Below, in pieces: positions 4,881-54,423 of a stretch of 64,000 nucleotides of DNA. Made by a program: the position numbers and the translations under genes. The notes under the pieces were generated by a model. That model ran no database searches, was not told where the DNA came from, and saw only the letters and a list, made by a program, of their open reading frames with translations. Positions within the stretch are counted from its first letter, which is position 1; every line of letters starts with the position of its first letter. The DNA is taken from assembly GCA_012032285.1 (NCBI GenBank), contig JAAURJ010000001.1:62001-126000 (forward strand). Reading direction: 5' to 3'. The DNA is from Sphingomonadales bacterium. GTDB taxonomy: Bacteria; Pseudomonadota; Alphaproteobacteria; Sphingomonadales; Sphingomonadaceae.

Positions 4881-7800
4881 TTAGAATTTATAGCGCGCAC
4901 CCAATAGATAGCGGGGCTGTTGCTCCTGAGCAAACCATAGGTTGGACGGATCACGGCCAAAGCTGCGCACCGGTTCGGACAGGATGTTTATGGCTTCAAA
5001 TGACAGCGAAATATTATCGGTCAAATTATAACCCAAGCTTGCATCCAATGTTCCAAATGGTTCGAAAAAGACCGGGTTACGGCTGCTGCCCCTGTTGGTG
5101 CCGGCAAGGAATTCACCGCGCCAATTATAGGCGACACGGGCCGACAAAGGACCTTTTTCATAGATGCCAGTGATATTGAAGCTATCGCTCAAACCCACAA
5201 GCGCGAACACGTTCGCCGTCGGATCCGCACCTACATCAACACCAACATCGCCAAACACCTTGGTCAAGGAAGCCGAAATACCAAAGCCGGTTTCGCCTAG
5301 GAAATATTGGCCCTGCAATTCGAAACCATGGATATTTCCGCTGCGATTGTTGATCGGCGTTGCAACTGAGAAGTTGAACAGCGGATCGCTGGCATTGGCA
5401 ATAACATCGGTCCGGCCCAATACTGTATCGGCAAAGGCTTGGTTAATCTGTCCTGTGGCCGGGTTCAGGTTCGCCTGGAACTGCGTAGAGGCAGCGGCAA
5501 TATTGCCTGTTTCCACCAGCAGCGCGGTCATGGTGAACAGGCTGACATCGGTCACCTCTACGCCCAGACGGTTCAGCTCGGCAACCGCCTCACCCGAACG
5601 CGACCCTGCCGCGCCGGAGCTGGGATCACGCAGCCCGAATAGCGGTTGATCAACTTGACCGACGCCCACGAAATTCTTCACATTTTTATAGAAGAAGCCC
5701 GCCGAAATATAGCTGGACCGATCAAAATACCATTCCAGCGATACATCGAAATTGTCTGAAACCAGAGGCTTCAGGCCGGGGTTGCCCGACGAACCGGTGG
5801 CCACGCCGCCCAAAAAGGTGGGACGGTTTGGCGCATTGGCCGATTGCGATGCGAACAAATTACCATAATCGGGCCGGGCCAATGTCCGGCTATAGGATAC
5901 ACGCGCCACCAGATCATCTGCTGGTTCAATCTGGAAATCTATCGACGGCAGCAAGTTGGTATAATCGCCCTTTAGCGACACCGGCGCAATAGTGGCCGAT
6001 ACAACACGGCTAAAGTCATTGTCCGAATCCCATTCAATCCGGTCGGGCAAAGCGATCAGCGACGAAGAGGTCACTTTGGTGTTTTCAAAACGCACGCCTG
6101 CCACAATCTTTGCCGGACGGCCCATCATGTCGCCTGACCAATTAAGCTGCGCATAGGTAGACCAGATTTTTTCATTCACCTCGTCAAAATCATTGCCGGT
6201 CACATTGATCGGGTTACCCCGTGCCTCATAAGCGGCGGCAAAGGCCTGATACAATTCGACCGCATTGCCGCGGAACGCGATTTCAGCGCTGGTCGGGTTG
6301 TAACGGCTGAACTGACATTGCAGGCAATATTGTTGGATCAAATTACCGGCAATTTCCTGAACATCGCCGACGCGGGTAATGCCCCAATCGCCCAAAGTCT
6401 GCTGTGTCTGGGTCCGGGCACTGGTCATTTTGGAATCGATATAGGCTGCACCAAGGGCAAAATTACCGCCATTGCCAAAATCCCAGGCCAGATCAGCACT
6501 GATCTGATTCAAACGGTGGATTTGTGTAGAGGCGTTGGTCCGCTGCACCTGTGTACCTAGATCACCAATGTCAAGAACGCCATTACCATTGCCGCGCTCT
6601 GCATCATCCAAAACCCAGTTTTGCAGAGGGATTGGCCCACGATAATCAACCGAATGCGCGTCAACAACCGGCGCCCCAAAGCTGACCAGCGTGGAGCTGG
6701 CGCCATTGGCAGAATTAGGCGAGCTTTCCGAGCGCGAATGATTGCCGTCGACGCTGAATGTTAGGTTATCGGTCAGCTCCAGCGCGGCATTCAGGCCGAA
6801 TGAGGTCAATTCGGATTTGGTCGCGCGATATTGCTGTTCAAAGCCAATATCTTTCACAGCATAGCCTGCGCCCTCCGAAATTTGAACGGCGGTTGCAACC
6901 ACTGGATTGCCGTCAAAAGTAACGGTATCAAAGGGGCGGTTGAACCAGTTGGTTTGGTCCGAACGCGCTTCATCAACTTTGTTTTGCGCATAAATGGCAT
7001 CGGCCGTAACGGTCAAAGCCTCTGTCGGCTTGAATTGCAGCGTCAGCTGTCCGTTCAATCTTTCGCGTGAAGATTCCGAATAATGGTAACGGCTGTCATT
7101 GGGAACCGCAACCAACTGCGCCGGATCGTCGGGGCCATTGGTGACAACGGTGGAAGCGCCCACACCAGGCGCACTAGAAAATGGCCGGATATTCCAGTCA
7201 TTGGAGGTTGCACTGGCCGCGGCGCTATTGCGTTTCTGATACGAACCAAACAGCGAAATACCCAAATTATTTTCGGCATTGGACCAGCTTAACACGCCCG
7301 ATAATTCGGGGGTAATGTCTTTGAAATCGACGCTGCTATCATAGAGCAATTTTCCGCCGACACTGCCGCGCAGGCCATCGTCGCGGCCATCCAGCGGACG
7401 CTGAGTTACAATATTGATCGCGGCACCGATACCGCCCGAGGGGCTTGCGGCGCGGCCGGTTTTATATACTTCCAGCCGGCTGACACCTTCCGCAGCGAGA
7501 TTGGAGAAATCAAAGGAGCGGCTGGTCGCACGGCCAAAGTCGACATTTTGATCTCCGCCCACGGCATCCACGCTGGAAGTCGCGAGTTGACGGCCATTAA
7601 CAGTGACCAGATTGAAAGCCGGACCAAAGCCGCGCACGGTAACCTGCGATCCTTCGCCATTGACGCGGCTGATCGATACGCCGGGAATGCGTTGCAATGA
7701 ATCTGCAAGGTTGGTGTCTGGGAATTTACCGATATCTTCCGCTGAAATCGCATCAACAACGCCGTTCGATTCGCGTTTAATGTCCATGGCCCGCTCAAGC

Positions 7801-30889: not shown

Positions 30890-31747
30890 TTAGACCTGAT
30901 TGGCGGCAAGCATCATTGCGCCTGTTATTCCGCTATCTTCGCCTAGGCCCGGCGCGGCAATATGGTGCCGTGCAGTACCGGGGAGATAGCCCCTATTCAG
31001 CAGCGCTGCCTGTTCCCGCACCCTTGCCAGCAAGCCCGGCGCCTTGCTAACCCCGCCGCCCAATATAATCATCTCAACCGCCGATATTGCGTATAAACTA
31101 TGGCAAAGTTGCGCCAGATAGGCGGCAACCCGGTTATGCGCTTCATGGCCAAGGGGTAAGTCAGATAAAGATGCGCCCCAACGCGCGATGATCGCAGGGC
31201 CGCTTGCCAAACCTTCCAGACAGTCGCCATGATGCGGGCATATCCCTTGAAAAGCGGTGTCGTCTGCGGCCCGGCGCGGAACAATATGGCCCATTTCCGG
31301 GTGCGCCGCGCCATGCACCGCCTGGCCATTGAGAACCAGCCCGCCGCCAATACCCGTGCCAACTGTTATATAGGCAAGCGAAGCGCAATTTTTGCCTGCG
31401 CCCAAATGATATTCGGCCAAAGCCGCGCCATTGACATCGGTATCAAATCCGCATGGCACGGCCAAATGCCGGGCAAAATATCCGGCGATGTCACAACCGG
31501 ACCAACCGGCTTTGGGCGTGTTGGTGATATGACCCCATGTAAGAGATGTGCGGTTCAAATCAGCAGGACCAAAGCTGGCAATGCCCAGCGCCTTTATGCC
31601 TCCTTGCCCTGTGAACCATTGAACCGCCTCTGCCAATGTTTCCTGTGGTGAGCGGGTAGGGATGACATGACGGGCATGAATGTTTTCCGGTGATGTCCCC
31701 ACCGCCAGCACAAATTTGGTCCCGCCTGTCTCAACCCCGCCAATCAT
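30890..31747 (-). CDS. ROK family sugar kinase (probable fructokinase)
   Basis: MIGGVETGGTKFVLAVG, GFDTDVNGAALAEYHLGAGKNCASLAYITVGTGIGGGLVLNG, CPHHGDCLEGLASGPAI. Confidence 0.9.
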   Translation of the reverse strand: MIGGVETGGTKFVLAVGTSPENIHARHVIPTRSPQETLAEAVQWFTGQGGIKALGIASFGPADLNRTSLTWGHITNTPKAGWSGCDIAGYFARHLAVPCGFDTDVNGAALAEYHLGAGKNCASLAYITVGTGIGGGLVLNGQAVHGAAHPEMGHIVPRRAADDTAFQGICPHHGDCLEGLASGPAIIARWGASLSDLPLGHEAHNRVAAYLAQLCHSLYAISAVEMIILGGGVSKAPGLLARVREQAALLNRGYLPGTARHHIAAPGLGEDSGITGAMMLAANQV

Positions 31748-32859
31748 GCGTATACCGGCTCGTCCAAGGTGCAGCGCTCCCCTGACAGTTTCAATCGCAG
31801 CAACGGCGCAGGCACACCGCCGAAATAATGATTGGCCCGGTCCCTATCCGCAGGCAGCTCCGCGCCCTTCAATCCCCAAAAATCAACGAAGCTCGATACC
31901 TGCAAATCGCCGGTCACACACCAGCTATAGCTTTGCATTGGTTCATCCAGCGGATTGCGCAGCACCAGACCACAGCCATTGAGCGGGCGGTATTCACCCA
32001 AAAGATTATCGGCGACCATCCCGTACAGCCCATTGGGGGCGTGCCGCAATTCAGGCGCAAATGTTGATCCCTGCGTCGCCCAGAAGGCATAATATAATCC
32101 ATCATAAAATACGATATGCGCCCGTTCCAATTCATTATTCACCCCGTCGGCATGGATTAACGGCGGGAGCAATTGCCAACCTTCCTCTTCTTTGCGGGCA
32201 ATACCCACCGCGCCATTATAATCGCTTTGCGCACCGGCAAGCGACCCAGTGAAAATCAGATATTCCCCGCCATCGGCAGGATCGCGGAAATAGGCGGGGT
32301 CGCGGAAAGCCTTTATCCTGCCCGCTTCGCCTTCATGCGCGTCGGCGGACATATAATAGGATGATGCGCCGGTGATCGAGGGGTGAGGCGCGCTCCAAAT
32401 AAGCGGCAAGCCGCCTTCATTCAAAGAACCATGTGTTTCGTATAATTGTTGCTGGTAACCGCCCGGGCGGGCGCTGGTTCCTGCGGCGGTGAAATACAGG
32501 CTGATCCGGTTGCCGTCGGTGACCGCACTGCCCGCCCATTCGCGTTCATAGGCAATGGTAAAGTCCGGCAAGACATCGCCCAGATCAGCCCAGCCATTTT
32601 CCCGCCGTTCAAGCCAGCGTATCTTCGCCTCAAAATGCCGCTTGGCAGGATCGCCCCTGTCCGGCGCACTCAGCGCCATCCAATATTCGCGTCCCGCGAT
32701 TTTGACAGGGATGCCATTTTGATCCTGCACCGGCCACATATCCCAATAGATACGGCTTTCCCAAAGTCCCGCGCGGTTAACATGGGTGATAGGCGGAATA
32801 ATCGCCGCACGGGATATATCAATCCGGCGCACATCATCATCGGTCCAGGCGGTGGTCAT
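31744..32859 (-). CDS. glycoside hydrolase family 68 (levansucrase/beta-fructofuranosidase-like)
   Basis: IYWDMWPVQDQNG, IKAFRDPAYFRDP (RDP motif), NNELERAHIVFYDGLYYAFWATQ; no recognisable signal peptide. Confidence 0.85.
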   Translation of the reverse strand: MTTAWTDDDVRRIDISRAAIIPPITHVNRAGLWESRIYWDMWPVQDQNGIPVKIAGREYWMALSAPDRGDPAKRHFEAKIRWLERRENGWADLGDVLPDFTIAYEREWAGSAVTDGNRISLYFTAAGTSARPGGYQQQLYETHGSLNEGGLPLIWSAPHPSITGASSYYMSADAHEGEAGRIKAFRDPAYFRDPADGGEYLIFTGSLAGAQSDYNGAVGIARKEEEGWQLLPPLIHADGVNNELERAHIVFYDGLYYAFWATQGSTFAPELRHAPNGLYGMVADNLLGEYRPLNGCGLVLRNPLDEPMQSYSWCVTGDLQVSSFVDFWGLKGAELPADRDRANHYFGGVPAPLLRLKLSGERCTLDEPVYA

Positions 32860-32927: not shown

Positions 32928-35386
32928 TCAAAAATCAAACCGTATCGAAGCCGATAGGGTGCGGCCATTGATCGAACGGGCGCGAATGAAGTTATTCACC
33001 CCGCTGGTAATCGATCCTTCCTCTGCCTCAGTGATACCGGTGACGTTGAACAGATTATTGGCGTTCAGCGACAATTCGATTCTGTCTACCGGCCGGAAAT
33101 TCACAAAGGCGTTCACCTGTGTATAGCCCGGGAAGATCAGTTGATTGCTGTCTTGAGCAAAGGATTTGGTCGTCCCGACAATATTGAATCCTGTCCGCAC
33201 TTTATCAAAATCCAGCGCCGGGGTGACCTGATAAACCAGATCGGCCTGACGGCGGGGTGTATTGCCTTGATTGGCAGGAGTGATGTTATCCTTTGATATT
33301 TTCGCATCGGTCCATGTTGCCCCGGCACGCAAATCGAAAACGCCTGATCTGTAAGCCGTTTCGAGCTCTATCCCTTTGGCGGTATAGGTGCGGTCAAAGA
33401 AACGTTGCGATGTGGCTTCGAAATTCTGTTCTTCGGTCCGTGCGTAAAAACCAGTGACAAAAAGGCCGAAACCGCCACTGCGATATTTTATGCCCAGTTC
33501 ATATTGATTGACAAAGTCGATTGCATCGGCCTTGCGCACAGAACCATCGGGTTGCACCACGCCAAAGAGCAAGCGGTCGGCATTGGCTCGTCCGCCGCGG
33601 CTTGCGCGGCCAAAGATCGCCGCATCATGCTAACGCGGAAGTTTGCTCCGATCGACCAAGACAGATAGCTGACATCATAATTGATCGGGCTTCTGACAGC
33701 GGTGTTGATCAAGGAAACACTTTGTTCAACAGGTTGAATATTGCCATCGCCGTCGACATCAAAATCGGCGGCCTGAAGCGTGCCAGCATAGCTGCCCCGC
33801 GCCGACACATTATCATAGCGGACGCTGGCATCAAAAGTCAGCCTGTCAAAATCAAGACCAAGGGCCAGATAGGGCGCGTTAATATCATAGCTGGCATCAT
33901 AGCTACGCTGGCAACAATTGCCCCAGAAAGGTACGCCATAGGCATAAAGGCCATTGCGCGTCAGTGTATCGCCGCTGACCGGATCGACCACATCGACAAG
34001 CGCCGCATTATCGCCGCGCACCTCCAACAGAAAACTGTCCCAGGTCCAATCCATATCAATATTTTGACGCGCTTTATAGAAACCCGCAGTCAGCGAGGCA
34101 TTCCCCAATTCCTTGGTCAGTTTCAGATCATTGGTGAAGCCGCCAAAATCATTGATTTCCGTGTTGAACAAATGGGTCCGCATCAACAGGCCGTTGCTGT
34201 TGTTAAAGGCTTGCCCGGCGTTGGGGCCATTGGCATAGACCAGATCATAATTTCCGGCTGTGCCAGTGAGCAATTCCCCAACCGAATTGCCGATCCCGGC
34301 CGCGGCGCCAACCTCTGAGGGGAATGGCGAGACAAAACGGCCCGACACATCCGACCAGCGGAAGCGTTCCTCCAAAGTCAAGCCATCGGCAATTTCAAAA
34401 ACCGCCTCCAATCCGACTGTAGTGACCAGCGGGTGCATCCCGTCGGTTATATCGGTAACACGGCGATTATTATTGCCGTCCAGCCCGGCAGCGCTGGTGA
34501 AAAAAGCGCTGTGCGGCGTGTCTGATAAAATATCAAAATTGGCAAAGGATTGGAAATTCGGATCGCCATTCGATCCGGTCACCAGCATCGGCATGGGCAG
34601 ATAGCCAATCGCGCGGTCATTCAAATGCTTCGCGTAAATCCGCACATAACCGCCATCAAATTCCTGTGTTAAATTGGCCTTGATCTGATAGCCACTATTA
34701 CCATTGTAACCGGCGTTACGTGGCCCCTCCCCTTCGCGCCAGAAACCGCCAATGTTGAATCTGGTATTTTCGCCAATGCTGGCTCCATAATTAAAGTCCA
34801 GTCGGTAATCTTCATAATCCAGTCCAACACTGGCCAATATGGTGCCGCCTTCTTTGCTGCCATCTTTTGATATAAAGTTGATTACGCCGCCAGGCGAGTT
34901 GGACGCCAAGGTAGAGGCTGATCCGCCGCGCACCGCTTGGATCGAACTGACCGTTTGATCGGCCCGCAGGAATATGTCGGCATTACCAAAGGCGATATCG
35001 CCAAATTGCAAAACCGGCAATCCGTCTTCCTGAAGCTGCAGGAATTTGGCGCCACCGGAGGCTACGGGAAGGCCGCGAACAGCGATGTTGGCATTGCCAT
35101 CACCGCCCGTTGCCTCAGACCGTATGCCCGGAATTTGCCGGAAAATTTCCGCTGTCGTGCGCGGGGCCGCATCGGCAATGGCTTCGCTGTCCAGCGCACT
35201 CACCGACACCGACGATTCGAGTTTATTGGTTGGCCGCGGCGATGCGGTGACCACAATTTCGTCAAAGCCGAGCGCGTCGTCATTGGCGGCTTCTTCGCCT
35301 GCTACCGGCGCTGCGTCCTGCGCCCATGTAGGGGTAGCAATAGCGGGCAATAGGGCACCAAAGGCCAAAATATGGCGATATTTCAT
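32928..35386 (-). pseudogene. TonB-dependent receptor (sugar locus), frameshift near 33629
   Basis: DEIVVTASPRPTNKLESSVSVSALDSE plug; ...SYLSWSIGANFRV then shifted DDAAIFGRASRGGRANADRLLFGVVQPDGS...SASIRFDF. Confidence 0.93.
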
Positions 35387-35444: not shown

Positions 35445-35482
35445 TTGCAAACGTTTGCAACAGAAAAATGCAAACGTTTGCA
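35445..35482. promoter_or_regulatory. two LacI-family operator palindromes between the divergent TonB receptor and MFS genes
   Basis: TTGCAAACGTTTGCAA (35445-35460) and TGCAAACGTTTGCA (35469-35482); both perfect palindromes centred on CG, about 23 bp apart. Confidence 0.88.
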
Positions 35483-35553
35483 AATTTTTATTTTCTGTGC
35501 CAGTCATAGTGTATGAACGGGCGGGAGGCCCTTTGGCGAGAGAGGGAAATATA

Positions 35554-43092: not shown

Positions 43093-44202
43093 TTATAATG
43101 CCCAATAGGCGAAGCTGACGCTGGCGGCAAATGCGGTCAATGTCGCGGCGGCCACAGGGAGAAGCGCCCGCCAGCCATAGGATAAAATGGCATCCAGACG
43201 TGAATTCATTGCCGTTGCAATCACCGCAAGCAGCAGGAATGTCTTTGAAATAAGCAGTCCCGCCTCTGCAACAATGGTGGGCGCACTGATCATCGAATTG
43301 ACCGCGACAACCCCAAAAAAGGCAATGATGAACCATGGGAAATGCAAATAATCCCTAATCCGTTTCTTGCGGGCTTGTCCGGTGCCGCCTGTTCCGCCGG
43401 AAGTACTGATCACTACAGCGATAATCGCCACAATCGGGGCGAGCAGCGCCACTCGCGTCAGCTTTACAATTGTCGCCACCTGTCCGGCACCTTCGGAATA
43501 GCCATAGCCGGCACCCAGCGACTGCGCCACATCATGGATCGCCGCTCCCATCAAAAACCCTGCCTGACGGTCGGTGAAATGCAGCGTGTCGGCCAAAATC
43601 GGATAGGCAGACAAGGCGACCGCGCTCGCCACTGTTATCCCCACAAGCGAAAAGGTGAAGCGGTCATATTCGAGCCGTTCCTTGCCAATGATCGCATAAA
43701 TGGCAAGCGCCGCCGATGCACCGCAAATCGCGGTCGCACCGCCCGCCAATAAACCGATCAAACTGCCCTGCCCGCTCCATTTGGCGGCAAAAACGCCCGC
43801 CAATATCACCATCGCCATGATGGCCAGCAAGCCGAGCAGGGAAAGCGGACCCATGGCGGCAATTTGCCATAGGGTGATCTGCGTGCCGAGCAGGACAATG
43901 CCCCAGCGCAGCAGGCTGGTGCTGCACAGCTGAAACCCCTTTACCGTCTTTTCACTCGCCGAAACAAAATTGAGCGACAGGCCAAGCAGCAAACCGGCGA
44001 CGATCGCCGGTATGCCGTAATGTTCGGACAGCCATGTCGCCGCCGCCGCCGCCACGCCGGTAATGATAAGACCGGGAAAATAGGCGCTGATCCGCGTCCG
44101 AACCTTTGGCTGCGGCTTATCTTGTTCGGCCAGCCAGATTTCGCCATAAAGATCCCCTTGGACAATGGCGTTCAGGCTGGGTCCGCGCTCAACCATTTTC
44201 AA
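43093..44202 (-). CDS. YeiH/UPF0324 family putative sulfate/sulfite exporter
   Basis: YFPGLIITGVAAAAATWLSEHYGIPAIVAGLLLGLSLNFVS...LLRWGIVLLGTQITLWQI...GGATAICGASAALAI...AAIHDVAQSLGAGYGYSE. Confidence 0.88.
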   Translation of the reverse strand: MKMVERGPSLNAIVQGDLYGEIWLAEQDKPQPKVRTRISAYFPGLIITGVAAAAATWLSEHYGIPAIVAGLLLGLSLNFVSASEKTVKGFQLCSTSLLRWGIVLLGTQITLWQIAAMGPLSLLGLLAIMAMVILAGVFAAKWSGQGSLIGLLAGGATAICGASAALAIYAIIGKERLEYDRFTFSLVGITVASAVALSAYPILADTLHFTDRQAGFLMGAAIHDVAQSLGAGYGYSEGAGQVATIVKLTRVALLAPIVAIIAVVISTSGGTGGTGQARKKRIRDYLHFPWFIIAFFGVVAVNSMISAPTIVAEAGLLISKTFLLLAVIATAMNSRLDAILSYGWRALLPVAAATLTAFAASVSFAYWAL

Positions 44203-44809
44203 GAGTGCTTATATCTATTATCGGGACATGATGTGCGGCGGCAAATTCCTCCATATCCGGCGCACGGGCCATGCTGCCATCCTCACGCATGATCGCGCAC
44301 AACACGATACCTTCACCCAGATCATAACGGCGGCACAGCTCCAACCCTGCCTCCAGCGTCGATTTGCGCACGGCCAGACCGCCAGGATTGGCAATGAGCG
44401 GAAAGACATGGCCCGGTGTGACCAGATCGGCGGCGCGGGCATCGGGGGCAACGGCAACCGATATGGTATGGGCGCGATCATAGGCGGAAATGCCAGTGTC
44501 CACGCCGTGCCGCGCCTCGATCGACACGCCAAAGGGTCTGCCGCTGCTGGCATGGCTGCCACCATCTTGGCGGCCAATACCCAAATGCCATGCCCGCTCC
44601 TGACTGATGCCCAAGCAGATAAGACCGCGTCCATGCAGCGCCATGAAGTTGATGGCCTGCGCAGTTACCTTGCTTGCCGCCATGGCAAAATCCAGATCAC
44701 CATCGCGCAGTTCATCGCCCGACAATATGATCATCCCGCCTGCACCCAGATGCGCCGCCAGATCACCGCGCCAGACCGGAGAAGAAGAATTGCCCGCCCG
44801 CGCTGTCAT
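44189..44809 (-). CDS. ribB: 3,4-dihydroxy-2-butanone-4-phosphate synthase (RibB-like)
   Basis: GAGGMIILSGDELRDGDLDFAMAASKVTAQAINFMALHGRGLICLGIS, VDTGISAYDRAHTI, PGHVFPLIANPGGLAVRKSTLEAGLELCRR. Confidence 0.9.
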   Translation of the reverse strand: MTARAGNSSSPVWRGDLAAHLGAGGMIILSGDELRDGDLDFAMAASKVTAQAINFMALHGRGLICLGISQERAWHLGIGRQDGGSHASSGRPFGVSIEARHGVDTGISAYDRAHTISVAVAPDARAADLVTPGHVFPLIANPGGLAVRKSTLEAGLELCRRYDLGEGIVLCAIMREDGSMARAPDMEEFAAAHHVPIIDISTLENG

Positions 44810-45359
44810 TTGAATATACCCGACGCGTCCAGCACTTGCTGTCCAACCAGTTCCAACTGCATCCGGGCGCCGACATCGCGTATCTCGCCTGCTTCGTCAA
44901 AAGTTTCTGGCGTGGTGCGAATGGCGGCCCCAATGGGCGTCGGCCACCCGCGCAGTGCGTGGGTGATGGTGCGCAGCGTCACCAATGTGCTCATCGTTGC
45001 CTGATGCCCAAAGCGGTGGCAATCAAGCCGACGGGGCGGCCATGAAAATAGGGCCGTTCGTCATTGGCCAGATCCTCCGCATAATCAAGCGCATTTTTGA
45101 CCAGCCCCGATATGCTGCCATGATAGCCCGGCGATGCGATTATGATCCCGTCGGCACGGCGCAAATCTGCAACCATCTGTGCGCCTGCCTCCTTGCTATG
45201 TCCAGGTCCGCCATAAAAAGGCAGGCTTGCCATATAAGCCCCGTCATAGCGGCAGATTTCCGCGCCCCGATCCGCCGCCGCACGGCAAGAAATGGCCAGC
45301 GCCTTTTCCGTCGATGAATTGGGGCGCGGTGTGCCGCCCAATGCGACGATTATGGTCAT
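44806..45359 (-). pseudogene. NADPH-dependent FMN reductase (SmoA-like), frameshift at 45007-45009
   Basis: MTIIVALGGTPRPNSSTEKALAISCRAAADRGAE...ADGIIIASPGYHGSISGLVKNALDYAEDL...GLIATALG then shifted HQATMSTLVTLRTITHALRGWPTPIGAAI. Confidence 0.88.
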
Positions 45360-45412: not shown

Positions 45413-45443
45413 ATGGTTTATGTCTACCGCTGTCATAGACCAT
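45413..45443. promoter_or_regulatory. candidate operator in divergent FMN reductase/MFS promoter region
   Basis: ATGGTTTATG-N11-CATAGACCAT inverted repeat (9/10 pairs); contains tgtctaccgctgtcatagacc, similar to 49321-49341. Confidence 0.6.
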
Positions 45444-45541
45444 GATTAAGCGATTAGTTTCATCATTTGCAAGGGCAAATGTCTATTCATTTGCCTCTTG
45501 CTATCAGGCGAGGCAAACAGGGGCAAGAGTGAGGGATTTTT

Positions 45542-46810
45542 ATGGTAGAGGCAGACAAAAGCGGGGCGCCGCGTTCGCAAAAATGGATACGCTACGGCTT
45601 GATCGCGCTGATTTTTTTTGGCACCGCACTCAATTATCTCGACCGGCAAGTTCTGGCTCTGCTCAAACCGATGCTGCAGGCGGATTTCGGGTGGAGCGAC
45701 CGTGAATTTGCCCATTTTGGCAGCTCATTTCAATTGGCGGCAGCCGCAGCTTTATTAGGTGTCGGCTGGTTTATCGACAAGGTTGGTGTGCGCTTTGGCT
45801 ATGGTCTTGCGGTGGCGGTGTGGAGCCTTGCCGGAATGGCCCATGCAGCGGCGACCACGGTGCAGCAATTCGTTATGGCCCGGGTCTCGCTCGCCGTGGC
45901 GGAGGCGGTGAACACCCCGGCTGCAATTAAGGCCGCAGCGACCTATTTACCCGTAAAGGAACGCTCTATCGGTTTGGGCGTGATTAACAGCGCATCCAAC
46001 ATCGGTGCCATCCTCGCCCCGCTCGCAGTGCCTGCCATTGCGTTAGCGCTAGGCTGGCACGCGGCCTTTTTGATTACCGGTGCATTGGGTTTTGTCTGGC
46101 TGCTTTTCTGGTGGCTGGGTACGGCCAAGCTGGAGCCTGTTAAGACAATCGAAGCGGCCGTGAATGCCGAAAAAGCCGAAGGGTCGCCGCCTTGGAGTCA
46201 GCTGGTCAAAGATCGCCGGACATTAGCGGTCATCGGGGCCAAGACGCTGACCGATCTGGTGTGGTGGTTTGTGCTATTTTGGGCCCCCGATTTCTTCGCG
46301 CGGCAATTTAATCTGGGGCAGGGCGATATTGGCTATCCGACAGCCATAGTCTATGTGATGGCGGCCATCGGCGCATTGTCGAGCGGTTTTTTATTCCCGG
46401 CGCTGTTGGGCCGCGGCTTTACCGCAAACCGGGCGCGGAAAAGCTCTATGTTCGCTTATGCCCTGCTGATCCTGCCGCTGCCCTTGGCCCTGTTTGCGCC
46501 CAATCAGTGGGTGGCGGCGCTGATCATCGGGTTGGCGCTTTTTGCGCATCAGGGTTTTTCCACCAATATATTTGGTATGACCGCTGATATTGTCCCCGCC
46601 CGGCAAGTGGGCAGCGTGATCGCTATGGGCGCATTGGCGGGCAATTTATCCGGCGCGGCGATGCTGGAATTTACCGGATGGGCGCTCGACAGCGGGCTTG
46701 GCTATACGCCAATGTTCCTGATGTCAGCGTGCGCTTACTTACTGGCGCTGGCATGGATCCATGCGATGCAGCCGCAACTGGTCGTTGTGAACACCGATGA
46801 GGAGGGGTAA
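45542..46810 (+). CDS. MFS transporter, ACS (anion:cation symporter/hexuronate) type
   Basis: RYGLIALIFFGTALNYLDRQVLALLKPMLQADFGWSDREFAHFGSSFQLAAAAALLGVGWFIDKVGVRFGYGLAV...GLGVINSASNIGAILAPL. Confidence 0.88.
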   Translation: MVEADKSGAPRSQKWIRYGLIALIFFGTALNYLDRQVLALLKPMLQADFGWSDREFAHFGSSFQLAAAAALLGVGWFIDKVGVRFGYGLAVAVWSLAGMAHAAATTVQQFVMARVSLAVAEAVNTPAAIKAAATYLPVKERSIGLGVINSASNIGAILAPLAVPAIALALGWHAAFLITGALGFVWLLFWWLGTAKLEPVKTIEAAVNAEKAEGSPPWSQLVKDRRTLAVIGAKTLTDLVWWFVLFWAPDFFARQFNLGQGDIGYPTAIVYVMAAIGALSSGFLFPALLGRGFTANRARKSSMFAYALLILPLPLALFAPNQWVAALIIGLALFAHQGFSTNIFGMTADIVPARQVGSVIAMGALAGNLSGAAMLEFTGWALDSGLGYTPMFLMSACAYLLALAWIHAMQPQLVVVNTDEEG

Positions 46811-46918: not shown

Positions 46919-49225
46919 TCATCGTATTTTCGCGCTTAATGAGACACCAAAATACCGGTCGGCATCACGCGGGATTTGATAGCGTTGCCCGTTGCCGACA
47001 TTCAGCAAGGCATAGCTGCTATCGCCAATATTGCGGGCATGGAAGGTCAGCCGGTATTTGTCATCGCTATCGCCAAGGCCAATGCTGGCATTCCATATGC
47101 CATAGCTTTCCAATGGACCGCCCTCTCCCAGATCGGAAAATTGTGAGCCGACATGGTTGAAACCTGACGCCAGATAGAGTTTCATTGCACCCAGATCTGC
47201 CTCATAATCACCGCCCACATTCCAGCTCCATTTCGGAGCGAGCGGAAGGCGCGTACCGTTGCGTGCATCGGGGGCACCTGATGGAGAATCGTTAAATTTG
47301 CGCACTTTGGCATCCGCATAGGCAACGCTGCCATTAAAGCTAAGCCCCGTAAACGGCGCAAAAACCGCATCAACCTCAAACCCTTTGGTCCGGACCTGAC
47401 CCGCATTGGTCAAATTGGTGATGGTCGTGCCGTTTAACAAGATAAAGTTATTCGCCTGAAAACCATCATAAGTCGCTTGGAATAATGCAGTATTAAGCTG
47501 GATACGTCGGTCCCAAAATTGCGATTTCATCCCCACTTCAAATGCGTCCGATGTCTCCTCACCAATGGGCACCGCATTATTGGGCGCGGTGTGGTTGAAG
47601 AACACATTAAAGGCCGGCCCCTTATAACCGCGTGTAAAACTGCTGTAGAAAAGCAGATCGTCATTGGGTTCAAACTGCACCGACACCTTGCCCGATATAT
47701 TATTGTTGCTGCTGCTGCCAAAGGAGGTGTTGGTGCCATTGCCGCCGCTCGCTATCGTGCCGCCTGCAGGATTGCCGGAAACACCGGGACCGGATAACGG
47801 CAAGCCGGTCACCGCATTCACGCCCGGAGCGCGTGTATGGTTATAACTTAGCACATCGCGGGTCCAGCGCAGACCGCCTGTCAGGCTCAATTGATCGGTA
47901 AAGCGGTAAGTGGCTTGGCCGAAAAAGGCGAGGTTGGAGCTGTTGACATCGCTTGCCGATGTTGCGGTTGGCCGGGTAGTGTTGACATTGTCGGTTAAAT
48001 TGCACGGCACCGCCCCCGATGGCGTGGCGGGCAAGGTGGAACTGGCGCAGACAATATCGCGCCGGGTAAAATCCTGTTTGTTATCTGAATGCCAGATAAA
48101 GGCGCCGATTTGATAGAAGAACGACTTTGCCTGATCAGAGGCAAGCCGGATTTCCGCCGACATCTGGTCGGTTTTAACCAAGCCTTCGTCATGCAGCTCA
48201 GCCGTTCCGACAACCGCACGCGGCAGAAAATCCCCTTCACGAATTTCGGTATTCCGCCAATTGCGATAGCCCAAAATCACACTCAACACATGGTCGCTGA
48301 AAATATCCACGTCCAAATTGCTGGTCAAACTCCATTGCCGGTCGCGGGTTTCGGTGATCAGATTATGGTTGACGGTGCGCTGGTCAAGGCCAAGAGCCAC
48401 GGGAAAGCCCAGCTCACCATCAAGCGCCGCACCCCGGCTGACCCCGGTTATGTCGGCACAGCAATCATCATTGGCTTTAAAATAGTCCGCAATGATACGC
48501 AGCCTTGCACCATCGCCGTCATAATCAATAATTCCGCGGGCGCCATAATGTTCATAGCCATTGACTTTTGTGTTATAAAAAATGTTGGTTATATTGCCAT
48601 CATAATTGCCGTAAAATCCGGTCAGACGGGCGGATAGATTTTGCCCTAAAGGACCGGAGATTGAAGCCTTGGCACGGTATTCATCGCCTTCATAATATTC
48701 GGCGCGCAAATCCGCCTCCAAGCTTTCTGTCCCGCCCTTTGACACCATATTGACCAGACCCGCCGAAGCGTTCTTACCGAACAGCGTGCCCTGTGGCCCG
48801 CGCAGCACCTCGATACGTTCCAGATCGAGCAGGTCGGCAAAGGCCTGCCCCGAACGGCTTAACACAATGCCGTCTACAACAGTGGAAACGCTTGGCTCGG
48901 CAGCAACCGAAAAGGTGATCGTGCCAACACCGCGCATGATAATCGCGCTATTGGCGCTGGTCGTGCCTTTGCGAAAGGTAACGGACGGCACCAGCTTGCC
49001 AATATTTTCTAGGCTGACCGTGCCGGTTTCCGCTAACTTGTCGCCGGAAATGGCGGTAATGGCAATGGGAATATCCTGCACATTTTCTTCCACCTTTTGT
49101 GCGGTCACAACAATTTCTTCAACCTGAGCCTGTGCGGGTGCCGCCATGGTCAGCGCCAGCATCGCCACGCTGCTACTCACAAAAAGCGAACAAGTGATAT
49201 TGGATTTTATAACGAACTGTTTCAT
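46919..49225 (-). CDS. TonB-dependent receptor (sulfoquinovose locus)
   Basis: MKQFVIKSNITCSLFVSSSVAMLALTMAAPAQAQVEEIVVTAQKVEENVQDIPIAITAISGDKL...LFGKNASAGLVNMVSKG. Confidence 0.96.
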   Translation of the reverse strand: MKQFVIKSNITCSLFVSSSVAMLALTMAAPAQAQVEEIVVTAQKVEENVQDIPIAITAISGDKLAETGTVSLENIGKLVPSVTFRKGTTSANSAIIMRGVGTITFSVAAEPSVSTVVDGIVLSRSGQAFADLLDLERIEVLRGPQGTLFGKNASAGLVNMVSKGGTESLEADLRAEYYEGDEYRAKASISGPLGQNLSARLTGFYGNYDGNITNIFYNTKVNGYEHYGARGIIDYDGDGARLRIIADYFKANDDCCADITGVSRGAALDGELGFPVALGLDQRTVNHNLITETRDRQWSLTSNLDVDIFSDHVLSVILGYRNWRNTEIREGDFLPRAVVGTAELHDEGLVKTDQMSAEIRLASDQAKSFFYQIGAFIWHSDNKQDFTRRDIVCASSTLPATPSGAVPCNLTDNVNTTRPTATSASDVNSSNLAFFGQATYRFTDQLSLTGGLRWTRDVLSYNHTRAPGVNAVTGLPLSGPGVSGNPAGGTIASGGNGTNTSFGSSSNNNISGKVSVQFEPNDDLLFYSSFTRGYKGPAFNVFFNHTAPNNAVPIGEETSDAFEVGMKSQFWDRRIQLNTALFQATYDGFQANNFILLNGTTITNLTNAGQVRTKGFEVDAVFAPFTGLSFNGSVAYADAKVRKFNDSPSGAPDARNGTRLPLAPKWSWNVGGDYEADLGAMKLYLASGFNHVGSQFSDLGEGGPLESYGIWNASIGLGDSDDKYRLTFHARNIGDSSYALLNVGNGQRYQIPRDADRYFGVSLSAKIR

Positions 49226-49309
49226 AAAGACTTCCTCCCAAAATAGACAAGCCATATGACGGCACCTTCCCGGCGCTCTTGCGTCTATACTTGCGGAAGA
49301 GTGAAATAA

Positions 49310-49348
49310 AATAATTGCATTGTCAAGCGCTGTCATATACCGATTATT
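49310..49348. promoter_or_regulatory. candidate operator in divergent TonB receptor/sulfoquinovosidase promoter region
   Basis: tgtcaagcgctgtcatatacc (49321-49341), 18/21 identical to 45421-45441; outer AATAAT/ATTATT arms. Confidence 0.55.
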
Positions 49349-49384
49349 GCATCAACCTATAAGGCATTAGAGGTAGGGATTAGG

Positions 49385-51400
49385 GTGCATTTCACCGCCA
49401 AAACAGATGGATTTGATCTCACTATGAACGGCTTCACGCTGCTCAGGCACCGCGCGGATCAGCCTGCTTTTGCGGCATACCGGGGCGATCCTGCGATCAA
49501 AATGTATCGCGGTAATTATCAAATTGAAGACCATCTTTCCCCTCTGGCACTGCTGGGCGACCCCGAAATATCGGAGCGCAAAATCCTGTTTCGCGGCGAT
49601 GATGGCATGGTCACATTTTCGGCGGAATTGGAGGAGGCGCCGCATGGCTTTCGCCTGACCCTATCGGCGCCTGCGCCCTGTGACCGGATATTCCTGCACC
49701 TGACCGCGCAGCCAAATGAGCATATCTGGGGCGGCGGGGAACAGATGAGCTATTTGCGGCTTAATGGTCGCCGTTTCCCGATATGGACCAGCGAGCCTGG
49801 CGTTGGCCGTGACAAAACCCGCGAGCTAACGCAGATCATGGACAAAGAAGGCATGGCGGGCGGCGATTTTTGGACCACCAATTATCCGCAGCCGACTTTC
49901 CTGTCCTCTCATCATTATGCCGGCCACTATACCGGATCCGCCTATAGCGTGATGGATTTTAGCAAGGCCGGCCGGCATAGTTTTGAAATCTGGTCAAACC
50001 GCGCGGCATTTGATTTCATCTTCGCTGATGATCTGCTGCAGCTTGTAGGCCGGCTTTCGGACTATTTCGGGCGACCTGCGCAGCTGCCTGACTGGGTGTT
50101 TGACGGGGCAATCATCGGGCTGAAAGACGGTATGCGCAGCTTTGAACGGTTGGAGCATATTATCAGTGCAGGCACCGCCGTCACCGGCCTGTGGTGCGAG
50201 GATTGGATAGGTATAAGGCAAACCAGCTTTGGCAGGCGGCTGTTCTGGGACTGGTGCTGGTCGGACGTGCGTTATCCCGAACTGCCCTCACGGATTAGGG
50301 ATTTGCGGCGGCGCGGTATTCGTTTTTTGGGTTATGTAAACCCCTATCTCGCTATTGACGGGGGGCAATATCAGGAAGCAGCGCGGCTTGGCTATTTGGC
50401 GCTGCGGCTGGACAGTGACGAACCTTATATAGTTGATTTCGGTGAATTTGATTGCGGCATAGTCGATTTCACCAATCCCGAAGCGGCGCTATGGTTTGCG
50501 GACCGTGTGATTGGCCAGGAAATGCTGGATTTCGGCCTGTCGGGATGGATGGCGGATTTTGGCGAATATCTGCCCACCGATGTGCGGCTGTTTGACGGCA
50601 CAGACGGAATGCTCGCGCATAATATGTGGCCGGTGCTATGGGCAAAAGTGAATGCCGATGCGATTGCCCGGCGCAATAAGCAGAATGAGGCCCTGTTCTT
50701 TATGCGGGCCGGATATTCCGGTGTTCAGGCGCATTGCCCCCTGCTTTGGGCAGGCGATCAGTGCGTCGATTTTTCGCGCCATGACGGTATCGGCACAGTG
50801 ATCACCGCCGCCTTGTCGGCAGGGCTTGTCGGCAATGCGGTCAGCCATAGCGATACCGGCGGCTACACATCGCTGCACGGGGTGGTGCGTACGGCGGAAT
50901 TATTCATGCGCTGGACCGACATGGCGGCCTTTACGCCGGTTATGCGCACCCATGAAGGCAACCGGCCCGATGATAATTTACAAGTCGATAGCAGCGCTGA
51001 AATCCTAACTCATTTCGCTGTGATGAGCCAAATTCACGCGGCGCTTGCACCCTATTTACGCGCGCTCGCAGGTGAAGCGCAGGAAAGCGGCCTGCCCATG
51101 CAAAGGCCAATGTTTCTGCACTATCCGGGCGAAACAATGTTTGCCGCTTGTCAGGACCAATATATGCTTGGCCCCGATATGATCGTAGCGCCGGTCATAG
51201 AGGAGGGTGTCACCAGCCGCGATGTTATGATACCGCTGGACAATGATTGGATATATCTTTGGTCAGGACAGCAGATTGCACCTGGAATGCATAACATTGC
51301 CGCACCTGTTGGTGCCCCGCCAGTATATTACCGCGCGGACAGCGCATTTGCGCCGCTATTCCGCTCGCTTCGCGGTATCCGCGGAGATTTAATCCCATGA
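49385..51400 (+). CDS. smoI: GH31 sulfoquinovosidase (YihQ/SmoI-like)
   Basis: IIGLKDGMRSFERLEHIISAGTAVTGLWCEDWIGIRQTSFGRRLFWDW, GWMADFGEYLPTD (nucleophile Asp), LLWAGDQCVDF (acid/base Asp), HSDTGGYTSL, AFTPVMRTHEGNRPDDN. Confidence 0.92.
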   Translation: MHFTAKTDGFDLTMNGFTLLRHRADQPAFAAYRGDPAIKMYRGNYQIEDHLSPLALLGDPEISERKILFRGDDGMVTFSAELEEAPHGFRLTLSAPAPCDRIFLHLTAQPNEHIWGGGEQMSYLRLNGRRFPIWTSEPGVGRDKTRELTQIMDKEGMAGGDFWTTNYPQPTFLSSHHYAGHYTGSAYSVMDFSKAGRHSFEIWSNRAAFDFIFADDLLQLVGRLSDYFGRPAQLPDWVFDGAIIGLKDGMRSFERLEHIISAGTAVTGLWCEDWIGIRQTSFGRRLFWDWCWSDVRYPELPSRIRDLRRRGIRFLGYVNPYLAIDGGQYQEAARLGYLALRLDSDEPYIVDFGEFDCGIVDFTNPEAALWFADRVIGQEMLDFGLSGWMADFGEYLPTDVRLFDGTDGMLAHNMWPVLWAKVNADAIARRNKQNEALFFMRAGYSGVQAHCPLLWAGDQCVDFSRHDGIGTVITAALSAGLVGNAVSHSDTGGYTSLHGVVRTAELFMRWTDMAAFTPVMRTHEGNRPDDNLQVDSSAEILTHFAVMSQIHAALAPYLRALAGEAQESGLPMQRPMFLHYPGETMFAACQDQYMLGPDMIVAPVIEEGVTSRDVMIPLDNDWIYLWSGQQIAPGMHNIAAPVGAPPVYYRADSAFAPLFRSLRGIRGDLIP

Positions 51401-52425
51401 GCCAGCGCAGCAATATCGGCGATGTATCCCGGCGCGCCGGTGTATCTGTCAAAACCGTCAGCCGGGTGCTGAATAACCATCCTTATGTCAGCGACGCGAT
51501 GCGGGCTAAGGTCAATGCAGCGATGGAGGAGCTGAATTTTCGACCCAGTGTTGCCGCGCGGATATTGGCCGGAATCAAATCGGCGCAAATCGCGCTTATC
51601 TATGACAATCATTCGCCTTATTATATCAATCTGATCCAATCGGGATGCTGGGAACGCTGTCATGAGGACAATGTACGTTTATTGGGACAACCGGTGGATG
51701 TCGCCGATCCCGATATCGGCAATCAGGTGCGCGGTTTGATCAATGAAACCCATGTTGACGGCGTGGTGCTGTCATCGCCGGTGACCGATTGTGATCCGGT
51801 GCTGCGGGCGCTGGAAAGCATGAACATCCCCTTTGTTCGCATATCACCGGGCACCAATCACGCGATGACATCCTCTGTCTATATGGACGATGCACAGGCG
51901 GCCGATGATATGACCACCTATTTAATCAATTGTGGTCACCGCCGGATCGCCTTTATAAAGGGGCACCCCAACCATATGGCATCGGATGAACGGCTGTTCG
52001 GTTATCGCCGTGCGCTCGATCGGGCAGGGTTGCCGTTTGATCAGCGTTGGTATGCGGACGGGCTATTTGATTTTGAAAGCGGATTTGACGCAGCCGAAAA
52101 ATTCCTTGCCCTGACGGAACGACCTACGGCGATATTTGCCAGCAATGACGATATGGCTGCGGGGGTTCAGGCTGCTGCACATAAGGCAGGGCTGGATATT
52201 CCGGGCGATATATCGGTTGCAGGTTTTGACGATACCACTTTGGCCCGCATGGTCTGGCCGCCGCTCACTACTATTCGGCAACCGACATTTGAACTTGCCA
52301 AAACCGCCACTGACCTGCTGCTCAGCGGCCAAACCTTGGTGCATAGGCGGCTGGATCATAAACTCATCGAACGCCAAAGCGTTGCCAAGGTCGGCGCCGC
52401 ATTAGAAAATGAACAAACAGAGTAA
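51397..52425 (+). CDS. LacI family transcriptional regulator
   Basis: SNIGDVSRRAGVSVKTVSRVLNNHPYVSDAMRAKVNAAMEELNFRPSVAARILAG; 4-bp overlap with the GH31 gene. Confidence 0.95.
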   Translation: MSQRSNIGDVSRRAGVSVKTVSRVLNNHPYVSDAMRAKVNAAMEELNFRPSVAARILAGIKSAQIALIYDNHSPYYINLIQSGCWERCHEDNVRLLGQPVDVADPDIGNQVRGLINETHVDGVVLSSPVTDCDPVLRALESMNIPFVRISPGTNHAMTSSVYMDDAQAADDMTTYLINCGHRRIAFIKGHPNHMASDERLFGYRRALDRAGLPFDQRWYADGLFDFESGFDAAEKFLALTERPTAIFASNDDMAAGVQAAAHKAGLDIPGDISVAGFDDTTLARMVWPPLTTIRQPTFELAKTATDLLLSGQTLVHRRLDHKLIERQSVAKVGAALENEQTE

Positions 52426-52438
52426 TTGGAAAAATGAT

Positions 52439-53344
52439 ATGAGCCTTCTTCCCCTTCCCCCCCGCACCCGCAAATTGGGCGGCACCGATATTGAAATTTC
52501 TTCACTCGCATGGGGAATGTGGCGCTTTACCGATGTGGTAGAGGGCCATGCCGCCCTTGTGCACACCGCAATAGATAACGGTATGACTCTGCTCGACACC
52601 GCCGATATTTATGGTTTCAAGGGACCGGACGGCTTTGGCGATGCGGAAAAATTACTGGGGCAGGTTTTTGCGGCGGAACCCGGCCTTCGGGGAAAAATCA
52701 TTTTGGCTTCAAAAGGCGGAATTATGCCGCCGCTGCCCTATGATAGCAGCGCCGCCTATTTGGAAGGCGCAATTAACGCCTCGCTCATGCGGCTCAACAC
52801 CGATTATCTCGATCTGTGGCAAATTCACCGGCCCGATATTTTAACCCACCCTGCCGAAATTGCCGCAACGTTGGAAAAAGCGGTCAGCGCCGGTAAGGTC
52901 CGCAATATTGGCGTGTCCAATTGCACAGCGGCGCAGATTGACGCGCTGCAAAGCTTTTTGTCGGTCCCGATAGTCAGCACGCAGCCGGAATTTTCGCCGC
53001 TATGTATTGATACCATCAATGACGGGCAGCTGGACCATGCGATCCAGCATCGCCGCACCGTTTTTGCCTGGTCTCCTTTGGGCGGAGGGCGGCTGACAAA
53101 GCCAGAAAGCGAGCGCGATCATGCCGTCGCCGCCGCTTTGGACAAGGTCGCAGGCGAACAGGGCGTCGCCCGCGCATCCGCCGCCTATAGCTGGATCATG
53201 GCGCATCCGGCGGGTGCCATTCCCATTGTCGGAACGCAAAATCCAGCGCGTATTGCCGAAGCTGCGCAGGCTTATAAGGTGCAATGGAGCAGGCAGGACT
53301 GGTATGCCGTTCTGGTCGCCGCAAGAGGAGAAAATTTGCCATGA
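52439..53344 (+). CDS. smoB: aldo/keto reductase (candidate SmoB-like 6-oxo-glucose reductase)
   Basis: RKLGGTDIEISSLAWGMWRF, GMTLLDTADIYG, DYLDLWQIHRPD, RNIGVSNCTAAQ. Confidence 0.85.
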   Translation: MSLLPLPPRTRKLGGTDIEISSLAWGMWRFTDVVEGHAALVHTAIDNGMTLLDTADIYGFKGPDGFGDAEKLLGQVFAAEPGLRGKIILASKGGIMPPLPYDSSAAYLEGAINASLMRLNTDYLDLWQIHRPDILTHPAEIAATLEKAVSAGKVRNIGVSNCTAAQIDALQSFLSVPIVSTQPEFSPLCIDTINDGQLDHAIQHRRTVFAWSPLGGGRLTKPESERDHAVAAALDKVAGEQGVARASAAYSWIMAHPAGAIPIVGTQNPARIAEAAQAYKVQWSRQDWYAVLVAARGENLP

Positions 53345-54423
53345 CCGAAATAAAATCCCCCGATAAGCCATGCGAAGTCAGCTGGTTTTCAGCGTTATGT
53401 GATGATGATTATGAATTTTTGGGTCAGCCCGATCCCAGACTGCAATCCAGCTGGGAGCATTGCCGCAATATCGTGCTGACCGCTGAAAAAGGGGGGTTTG
53501 ACAATATATTGCTGCCATCGGGTTATCAGCTCGGACTCGACACCACCGTCTTTGCATCAGCTATTGCTCCCTTTTTGCGCACGATGCGCCTGCTTATGGC
53601 GGTGCGCATTGGGGAGGACTGGCCGCCGCAGCTTGCCCGGCGCATTGCCACGCTGGATCAGATATTGGGCGGACGGATGACCGTCAATATCATCTCTTCC
53701 GACCTGCCGGGGCAACAAATGGATAGCGATCCGCGCTATGCCCGCACGGTGGAGGTGATGAAAATCCTGAAGACCATGCTCAACGGACAGCCGCTCGACC
53801 ATCAAGGCGAATTTTACCAGCTAAAGCTTGACCCGCCGCGTATGAAAACCGTTTCAGGAAAGTGCCCGCCGCTGTATTTTGGCGGATTAAGCCCCGCCGC
53901 ACGCGAAGCCGCAGCCGAGGCGGCGGATGTCTATTTGATGTGGCCCGATACCATGGACAAGGTTCGCGAAGTCGTCGCAGACCTTACCGCGCGGGCGGCG
54001 GCCAAGGGACGCACATTGAAATTCGGATACCGCGCCCATGTGATCGTCCGCGAAACCGAGGCGGAGGCCCGCGCCTATGCGCAGCGGCTTTTGTCCAAGC
54101 TGGATGACGGGGCGGGCGAGGCGATTCGCAACAAATCGCTCGACACCAACACGGCCGGGGTCGGCAGGCAGAATGAACTGCGCGCATCGGCGCAGGAGGA
54201 TGGTTTTGTTGAGGATAATCTATGGACCGGCATTGGCCGTGCGCGGTCGGGGTGCGGCGCCGCGATTGTGGGCGACCCGGATCAGGTGCTGGCCAAAATC
54301 CGCGCTTATCAAGAGGCGGGCATGGAGGCGTTTATCCTATCTGGATACCCCCATGCGGCGGAATGCGACCTGTTCGCCCGCCATGTCCTGCCGCATATCA
54401 ACCATGGTCCGTTGATGCTATAA
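53341..54423 (+). CDS. smoC: LLM-class flavin-dependent monooxygenase, SsuD/SmoC-like (candidate sulfoquinovose monooxygenase)
   Basis: EVSWFSALCDDDYEFLG, TAEKGGFDNILLPSGYQLGLDTTVFASAIAP, LGGRMTVNIISSDLPGQQMDSDPRYART; ATGA overlap with the AKR gene. Confidence 0.87.
   Translation: MTEIKSPDKPCEVSWFSALCDDDYEFLGQPDPRLQSSWEHCRNIVLTAEKGGFDNILLPSGYQLGLDTTVFASAIAPFLRTMRLLMAVRIGEDWPPQLARRIATLDQILGGRMTVNIISSDLPGQQMDSDPRYARTVEVMKILKTMLNGQPLDHQGEFYQLKLDPPRMKTVSGKCPPLYFGGLSPAAREAAAEAADVYLMWPDTMDKVREVVADLTARAAAKGRTLKFGYRAHVIVRETEAEARAYAQRLLSKLDDGAGEAIRNKSLDTNTAGVGRQNELRASAQEDGFVEDNLWTGIGRARSGCGAAIVGDPDQVLAKIRAYQEAGMEAFILSGYPHAAECDLFARHVLPHINHGPLML

Follow-up and report, generated by a model that had tools for sequence, protein, structure and literature searches.

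Clusters for sulfoquinovose (SQ) breakdown in sphingomonads can carry, directly behind a flavin reductase gene, a gene for a protein that keeps the fold of DHBP synthase (RibB) and has its catalytic residues substituted. We call this pseudo-RibB pRibB. Its invariable position behind the reductase in these clusters suggests that it has a new, non-riboflavin job in the pathway. We give an even chance to the reading that pRibB, as a pseudoenzyme, holds some phosphorylated ligand and assists at the step of the flavin reductase and the SQ monooxygenase; the last part of that reading is the one we infer.

Gene layout in the window

The window, by which we mean the whole stretch of 64,000 nucleotides analysed, contains an SQ cluster with the features collected in Table 1. 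The LLM monooxygenase and aldo-keto reductase genes lie side by side, as in sulfo-SMO/ASMO clusters. The best NCBIfam match of the monooxygenase was TIGR03565 with 256 bits, below the SsuD equivalog cut-off of 518, a score compatible with a distinct SquD, the identity being taken from family profiles. The reductase matched PF03358 and missed the SsuE/MsuE equivalog cut-offs, as its intact relatives also did. The MFS transporter has a copy 83-85% identical beside the operon in three other loci (L042, L044, L216), and the true start of the TonB-dependent receptor is probably an internal Met near 49225. No riboflavin gene was seen in the SQ cluster beyond the RibB-like gene.

Table 1. Features of the SQ cluster and of the adjoining pRibB operon, in window positions
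Feature	Position	Strand	Basis
YeiH-family membrane protein, putative sulfite-relief transporter	43093..44196	-	PF03601 1.1e-48
pRibB: DHBP-synthase-fold protein, catalytic residues substituted (pseudo-RibB)	44189..44809	-	PF00926, AF2 model, residue census
NAD(P)H:FMN reductase family protein	44806..45359	-	PF03358 6.5e-21 on 5' part; tblastn pieces 45350-45006 and 45012-44830
Operator-like motif TGTCTACCGCTGTCATA	45421..45437	+	between divergent reductase operon and MFS gene; perfect match to TGTCNNNCGNTGTCATA
MFS transporter, divergent from reductase operon	45542..46810	+	PF07690
TonB-dependent receptor of SQ cluster	46919..49336	-	PF00593/PF07715
Operator-like motif TGTCAAGCGCTGTCATA	49321..49337	+	between divergent TonB receptor and sulfoquinovosidase genes; perfect match
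GH31 sulfoquinovosidase (YihQ type)	49385..51400	+	PRK10426 841 bits, cut-off 553
LacI-family regulator	51397..52425	+	reading frame and LacI-type sequence; adjoins SQase in pRibB clusters
Aldo-keto reductase (SquF/SmoB-like 6-dehydroglucose reductase)	52409..53344	+	PF00248 3.9e-53
LLM flavin-dependent monooxygenase (SquD/SmoC-like SQ monooxygenase)	53341..54423	+	PF00296 3.4e-51

The reductase gene starts with the ATG at 45359, which is preceded by GGGAGG, and in this assembly its frame is broken once, at about 44991-45012. In the downstream frame the TGA stop (44808-44806) overlaps the ATG of pRibB (44809-44807). Allowing for the single break, we confirmed the ATGA overlap at 44806-44809 given in the preliminary description, and likewise the overlap of the RibB-like and YeiH-family frames at 44189-44202 (YeiH ORF 43093-44202). 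The YeiH-family gene more likely starts at the ATG at 44196 than at 44202, since its relatives begin at the same point. The three genes, described earlier as co-transcribed, form one overlapping unit, a layout read from the sequence. Overlap of the reductase stop with the pRibB start, of the ATGA/GTGA or TGATG type, was found again in nearly all relatives, which argues that the arrangement is not due to chance. The reductase is intact in relatives, including L216, a close relative with the same gene order, and this draft of 96 contigs has a similar frame break in the essential housekeeping ribBA gene, on another contig (C51). The break in the reductase gene is therefore probably an assembly error, a real mutation being the alternative.

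A 279-aa antisense ORF at 44165-45004 on the forward strand had no Pfam match and was set aside as an artefact. Some relatives have long open frames at pRibB that looked like possible reductase-RibB fusions; these proved to be unrelated reading frames that contain no reductase sequence. A scan for sigma-70 promoters and terminators gave no signals clearly above shuffles.

The YeiH-family protein scored 166 bits against PF03601 (cut-off 24.5) and 98.9 bits against TIGR00698, below the cut-off of 232.6. YeiH of the same Pfam family is a sulfite-resistance membrane protein of Salmonella (PMC12880088), and the setting, in which sulfite is released, is alike in both cases. However, the window protein is divergent, with no YeiE-type gene recognised adjacent to its own gene, and transport is putative for both proteins. 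By analogy, a role as a sulfite-relief transporter is plausible. The export route proposed earlier for sulfite or sulfate thus fits as sulfite relief, but it is not universal: only some SQ clusters carry a YeiH gene, so YeiH is not an obligate partner.

Among the SQ genes at 46919-54423, the SquD is 87-88% identical to that of a different genus (G075, G143, G196, G273) and only about 76% identical to that of the window's own genus (G139, G194, G271). This closer relationship to another genus suggests horizontal transfer of the SQ cluster. Elsewhere in the window the palindrome TGCAAACGTTTGCA occurs twice at 35445-35485, ahead of an MFS/LacI pair that adjoins GH31 and GH13 genes (the latter an alpha-amylase with a glucodextranase-type C-domain); this is an alpha-glucan locus with a likely LacI operator, situated beside the SQ cluster. 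A GH68 levansucrase/invertase gene (31744-32859) lies near a TonB receptor gene (33488-35386).

pRibB and its genomic partners

We found pRibB in 25 of 301 Sphingomonadaceae genomes, all 25 of which also carried SquD. SquD was present in 80 of the 301, and since 55 of these 80 were without pRibB, SQ breakdown in itself does not require it. The co-occurrence has a P value of 1.7e-16 (hypergeometric, assuming independence), which overstates the case because pRibB tracks one SquD clade and the genomes are not independent. The scores of our search profile (A1) give no clean separation from canonical RibBA; hence, the listed pRibB loci were assigned by motifs.

Altogether 36 loci, the window included, came from the 301-genome set, nine genomes found later, Novosphingobium sp. 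SG707 (L061) and a plasmid of N. humi G5 (L186). In every one of them pRibB lay in an SQ (sulfo-SMO/ASMO) cluster, directly behind the reductase, so that the combination of a ribB paralog with smo-like genes recurs beyond the window. The nine later genomes, one of them from another family of the order, served as an out-of-sample check, and all nine keep the reductase-pRibB arrangement. The surroundings differ: pRibB may be part of the SQase operon, following GlpD, or of a distinct operon with the order YeiH-GlpD-reductase-pRibB, or of one divergent from the MFS gene, or it may lie behind the receptor gene. GlpD, GlpK and YeiH are variably present and the reductase is the invariant partner. Judged from these gene orders, the reductase-pRibB pair moves as a unit. 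One of the SQ clusters (L038, in G008) has many frame breaks, with the receptor, SQase and MFS genes in pieces, as is typical of a low-quality assembly.

Beside reductase orthologues outside SQ clusters (G128, G129, G266, G107), pRibB was absent; the occurrence of the reductase clade in these four genomes without pRibB indicates that the reductase can do without it. In G183, which has SquD of the clade that pRibB tracks, both reductase and pRibB were missing. Outside Sphingomonadales, a search of 386 class-level and 379 phylum-level genomes found no pRibB, and a contig search gave no further one among the best matches listed, apart from that of Novosphingobium sp. SG707. In three of the loci without an SQ monooxygenase or pRibB (L142, L143 and L144, in G128, G266 and G107), a reductase of the same type lies directly behind GlpD, and in L143 a YeiH gene adjoins the pair. 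These GlpD-reductase pairs may be remnants of an SQ cluster or may have a separate role in glycerol metabolism.

The pRibB clusters have SQase, LacI, aldo-keto reductase, LLM monooxygenase, flavin reductase and transporter genes in common with the sulfo-SMO/ASMO clusters of Agrobacterium tumefaciens (smo) and Novosphingobium aromaticivorans (squ). They differ in adding pRibB, in most loci also GlpD/GlpK and in some also YeiH, and in a reductase that scores far below the SsuE/MsuE cut-offs. According to one review, the N. aromaticivorans SQ cluster is without SsuE, and riboflavin genes are unmentioned in two SQ reviews (PMC9594981, PMC12890257). Our reading of the SQ literature, which covered work other than the primary pathway papers (Sharma 2022; Liu 2021), found no mention of RibB or riboflavin.

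The pRibB clusters also share an operator-like motif. The motif TGTCNNNCGNTGTCA lies ahead of the sulfoquinovosidase/receptor genes and, where it is separate, of the reductase-pRibB operon: TGTCAAGCGgTGTCAtA is common to the receptor/SQase divergent promoter regions, and this element, its centre varying, also precedes the reductase operon wherever that operon stands apart. All 36 loci have at least one exact copy of the core (two in 16 loci, one in the other 20). Allowing up to two mismatches, the window contains six matches where 1.1 would be expected, and 100 shuffles never gave as many. These figures are a guide only, because the motif was derived from these same sequences. Its recurrence in the nine later loci is a better test than the shuffles. 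The motif was absent from loci with the reductase and without SQ genes (L141-L144). The LacI-family regulator encoded next to the SQase is a candidate reader of the motif. Both the co-occurrence and the shared motif bear out the earlier assignment of the RibB-like operon to the SQ programme. A second element in the divergent promoter region, the perfect palindrome CATTTGCAAGGGCAAATG at 45464-45481, was rejected as an operator, as it is not conserved in relatives.

Substitutions in the active site of pRibB

Besides the RibB-like gene, a PF00926 search of the genome returned a single further locus, which lies on contig C51. There a ribBA gene with canonical motifs (DDEDRENEGD, RAGHTEA and VICEI), split by a frame break (G000 contig C51, about 7018-7594; L037), is followed by a lumazine-synthase-like frame (ribH). 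The presence of this canonical ribBA-ribH pair rules out that the RibB-like gene is just the housekeeping copy.

Membership of pRibB in the family is clear (PF00926, E = 7.6e-53, 179 bits, cut-off 26.4), and its score is below the equivalog-domain cut-off of NCBIfam TIGR00506 for ribB (137.7 versus 177.45 bits). The AF2 model has a mean pLDDT of 88.6, and the significant Foldseek matches were all DHBPS, with E values down to 3.5e-21. pRibB shares the fold of canonical RibB (TM about 0.84 to 6mnz and to RibB of E. coli, V. cholerae and Y. pestis; up to 43% identity in the Foldseek comparison), together with the GISAxDRA and PGHxFPL motifs. The roles of the catalytic Glu and the acidic-loop Asp are established for the DHBPS family. 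A census of 25 pRibB and 112 canonical RibB/RibBA sequences showed that in canonical sequences the catalytic Glu and the first Asp of the acidic loop are kept in 112/112, and that the metal-binding His is Gln in 11. In all 25 pRibB sequences, by contrast, the acidic-loop Asp is Gly (G31 in the window protein), the catalytic Glu of the VICE motif is Ser or Ala (A172), and the Thr beside the metal His is Ala, Leu or Val. The two protein ligands of the catalytic Mg2+, E35 and H150 in ZtDHBPS (PMC12268802), are likewise replaced in 25/25, the Glu by Asp, Gly or Arg (D36 in the window) and the His by Ala or Thr (T151). What is retained in all 25 is the phosphate-binding Arg pair R35/R148 and the substrate residues H134 and D40, which correspond to R34, R147, H133 and D39 of ZtDHBPS, positions that touch the inhibitor phosphonothrixin in a recently described structure of DHBPS (PMC12268802). 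G31, D38 and R91-P92 are newly invariant in pRibB. The gene differs from canonical ribB in its setting as well, as it stands alone behind a flavin reductase gene in a catabolic operon.

Because both protein ligands of Mg2+ and the catalytic Glu are gone in every member, pRibB should not make DHBP, and going by these residues we consider it very probable that it has no DHBPS activity. The dedicated flavin-supply step proposed in the preliminary description is not supported, given these replacements and given that no other rib gene was seen in the cluster. The pRibB clade is monophyletic (support 1.0) with a long stem (0.64) and ordinary tip branches, and its dN/dS of 0.05-0.25 indicates purifying selection. 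By this sequence evidence, pRibB is not decaying: it is either maintained as a pseudoenzyme or has been repurposed as an enzyme.

Possible roles of pRibB

In the mechanism that we propose, a duplicate of DHBP synthase would have lost the metal centre and the catalytic base, kept the two phosphate-holding arginines, and been recruited into the SQ regulon of Sphingomonadales. There pRibB would be made together with the FMN reductase, probably via translational coupling. A fold once used for ribulose 5-phosphate could accommodate the ribityl-phosphate of FMN; pRibB may hold FMN/FMNH2 in this way, or another phosphorylated ligand, and may stabilise or gate the reduced flavin that the reductase makes, or pass it on to the SQ monooxygenase. 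This is the reading that we prefer. We place pRibB at the FMNH2-supply step because the reductase is its invariant partner and translation of the two appears coupled. That it works with the reductase or the monooxygenase seems to us evenly poised, and that its ligand is a flavin is a tentative suggestion, rather doubtful at present. It is possible but rather unlikely that pRibB is a non-catalytic third subunit of the two-component monooxygenase system, one that takes FMN/FMNH2 over from the reductase and delivers it to the SQ monooxygenase. We know of no flavin-handling role for the DHBP-synthase fold.

In the main rival reading, pRibB has been neofunctionalised for SQ catabolism: with its Ru5P pocket reshaped, it would work without a metal as an isomerase, a lyase or a mutarotase-like enzyme, and an intermediate that is a sugar or sulfosugar (SQ, 6-dehydroglucose) would be its substrate. 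Since polar pocket residues remain (C65, H134, D38, D40, R35), the protein might carry out another kind of chemistry. These residues and R148 are invariant, as is the new R91-P92; the SQ sulfonate could use the phosphate-binding arginines, and both the purifying selection and the constant location in SQ clusters would be expected. However, the described pathway is complete without pRibB, with SQase, SquD, reductase and SquF all in the clusters, most genomes with SquD are without pRibB, and it is always coupled to the reductase, not to SquF or the SQase. We regard this rival as possible but somewhat unlikely. The pseudoenzyme signature and the retained phosphate site would also suit a role in sensing or allosteric regulation, in which pRibB would bind a pentose or sugar phosphate and adjust either the SQ operon or central metabolism, with no connection to the reductase; we find this improbable, as the LacI regulator and the operator-like motif already explain control, a DNA-binding part was not found in pRibB, and the strict coupling to the reductase would be left unexplained.

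In lux-rib operons, riboflavin genes accompany bacterial luciferase, likewise an FMNH2-dependent LLM monooxygenase, and the lux-linked rib genes code for active biosynthetic enzymes. pRibB could similarly have retained a DHBP synthesis, slow or altered in rate, that boosts flavin for the SQ monooxygenase, and its PF00926 membership, overall fold, retained phosphate-binding residues and link to a flavin reductase are in line with this. Unlike the lux-linked enzymes, pRibB looks inactive, with residues that are (nearly) invariant in the 112 canonical sequences replaced in 25/25; other rib genes were not seen in the cluster, and a canonical ribBA-ribH pair is present elsewhere, which makes continued DHBP synthesis very improbable. 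That the gene is a decaying duplicate heading for loss, as the missing catalytic residues and the broken frame of the neighbouring reductase in this assembly might hint, is scarcely credible, as the dN/dS values strongly contradict it and pRibB has its own invariant residues and is kept with the reductase in 36 loci of several arrangements.

What seems new here, judged by the SQ papers covered, is the RibB-derived component; the SQ pathway itself was already known. The pRibB clade is one that automatic annotation would label as active RibB, and its description also provides a flavin-reductase candidate for sphingomonad SQ clusters and a regulon motif. Few organosulfur compounds are as abundant as sulfoquinovose, a plant sulfosugar. 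In a freshwater isotope-probing study, Novosphingobium belonged to the predominant SQ degraders (PMC13372026). If pRibB is indeed a dedicated, translationally coupled third protein, it would make the question of flavin hand-over testable. How reduced flavin is delivered to two-component monooxygenases, by diffusion or by protein hand-over, is a long-standing question.
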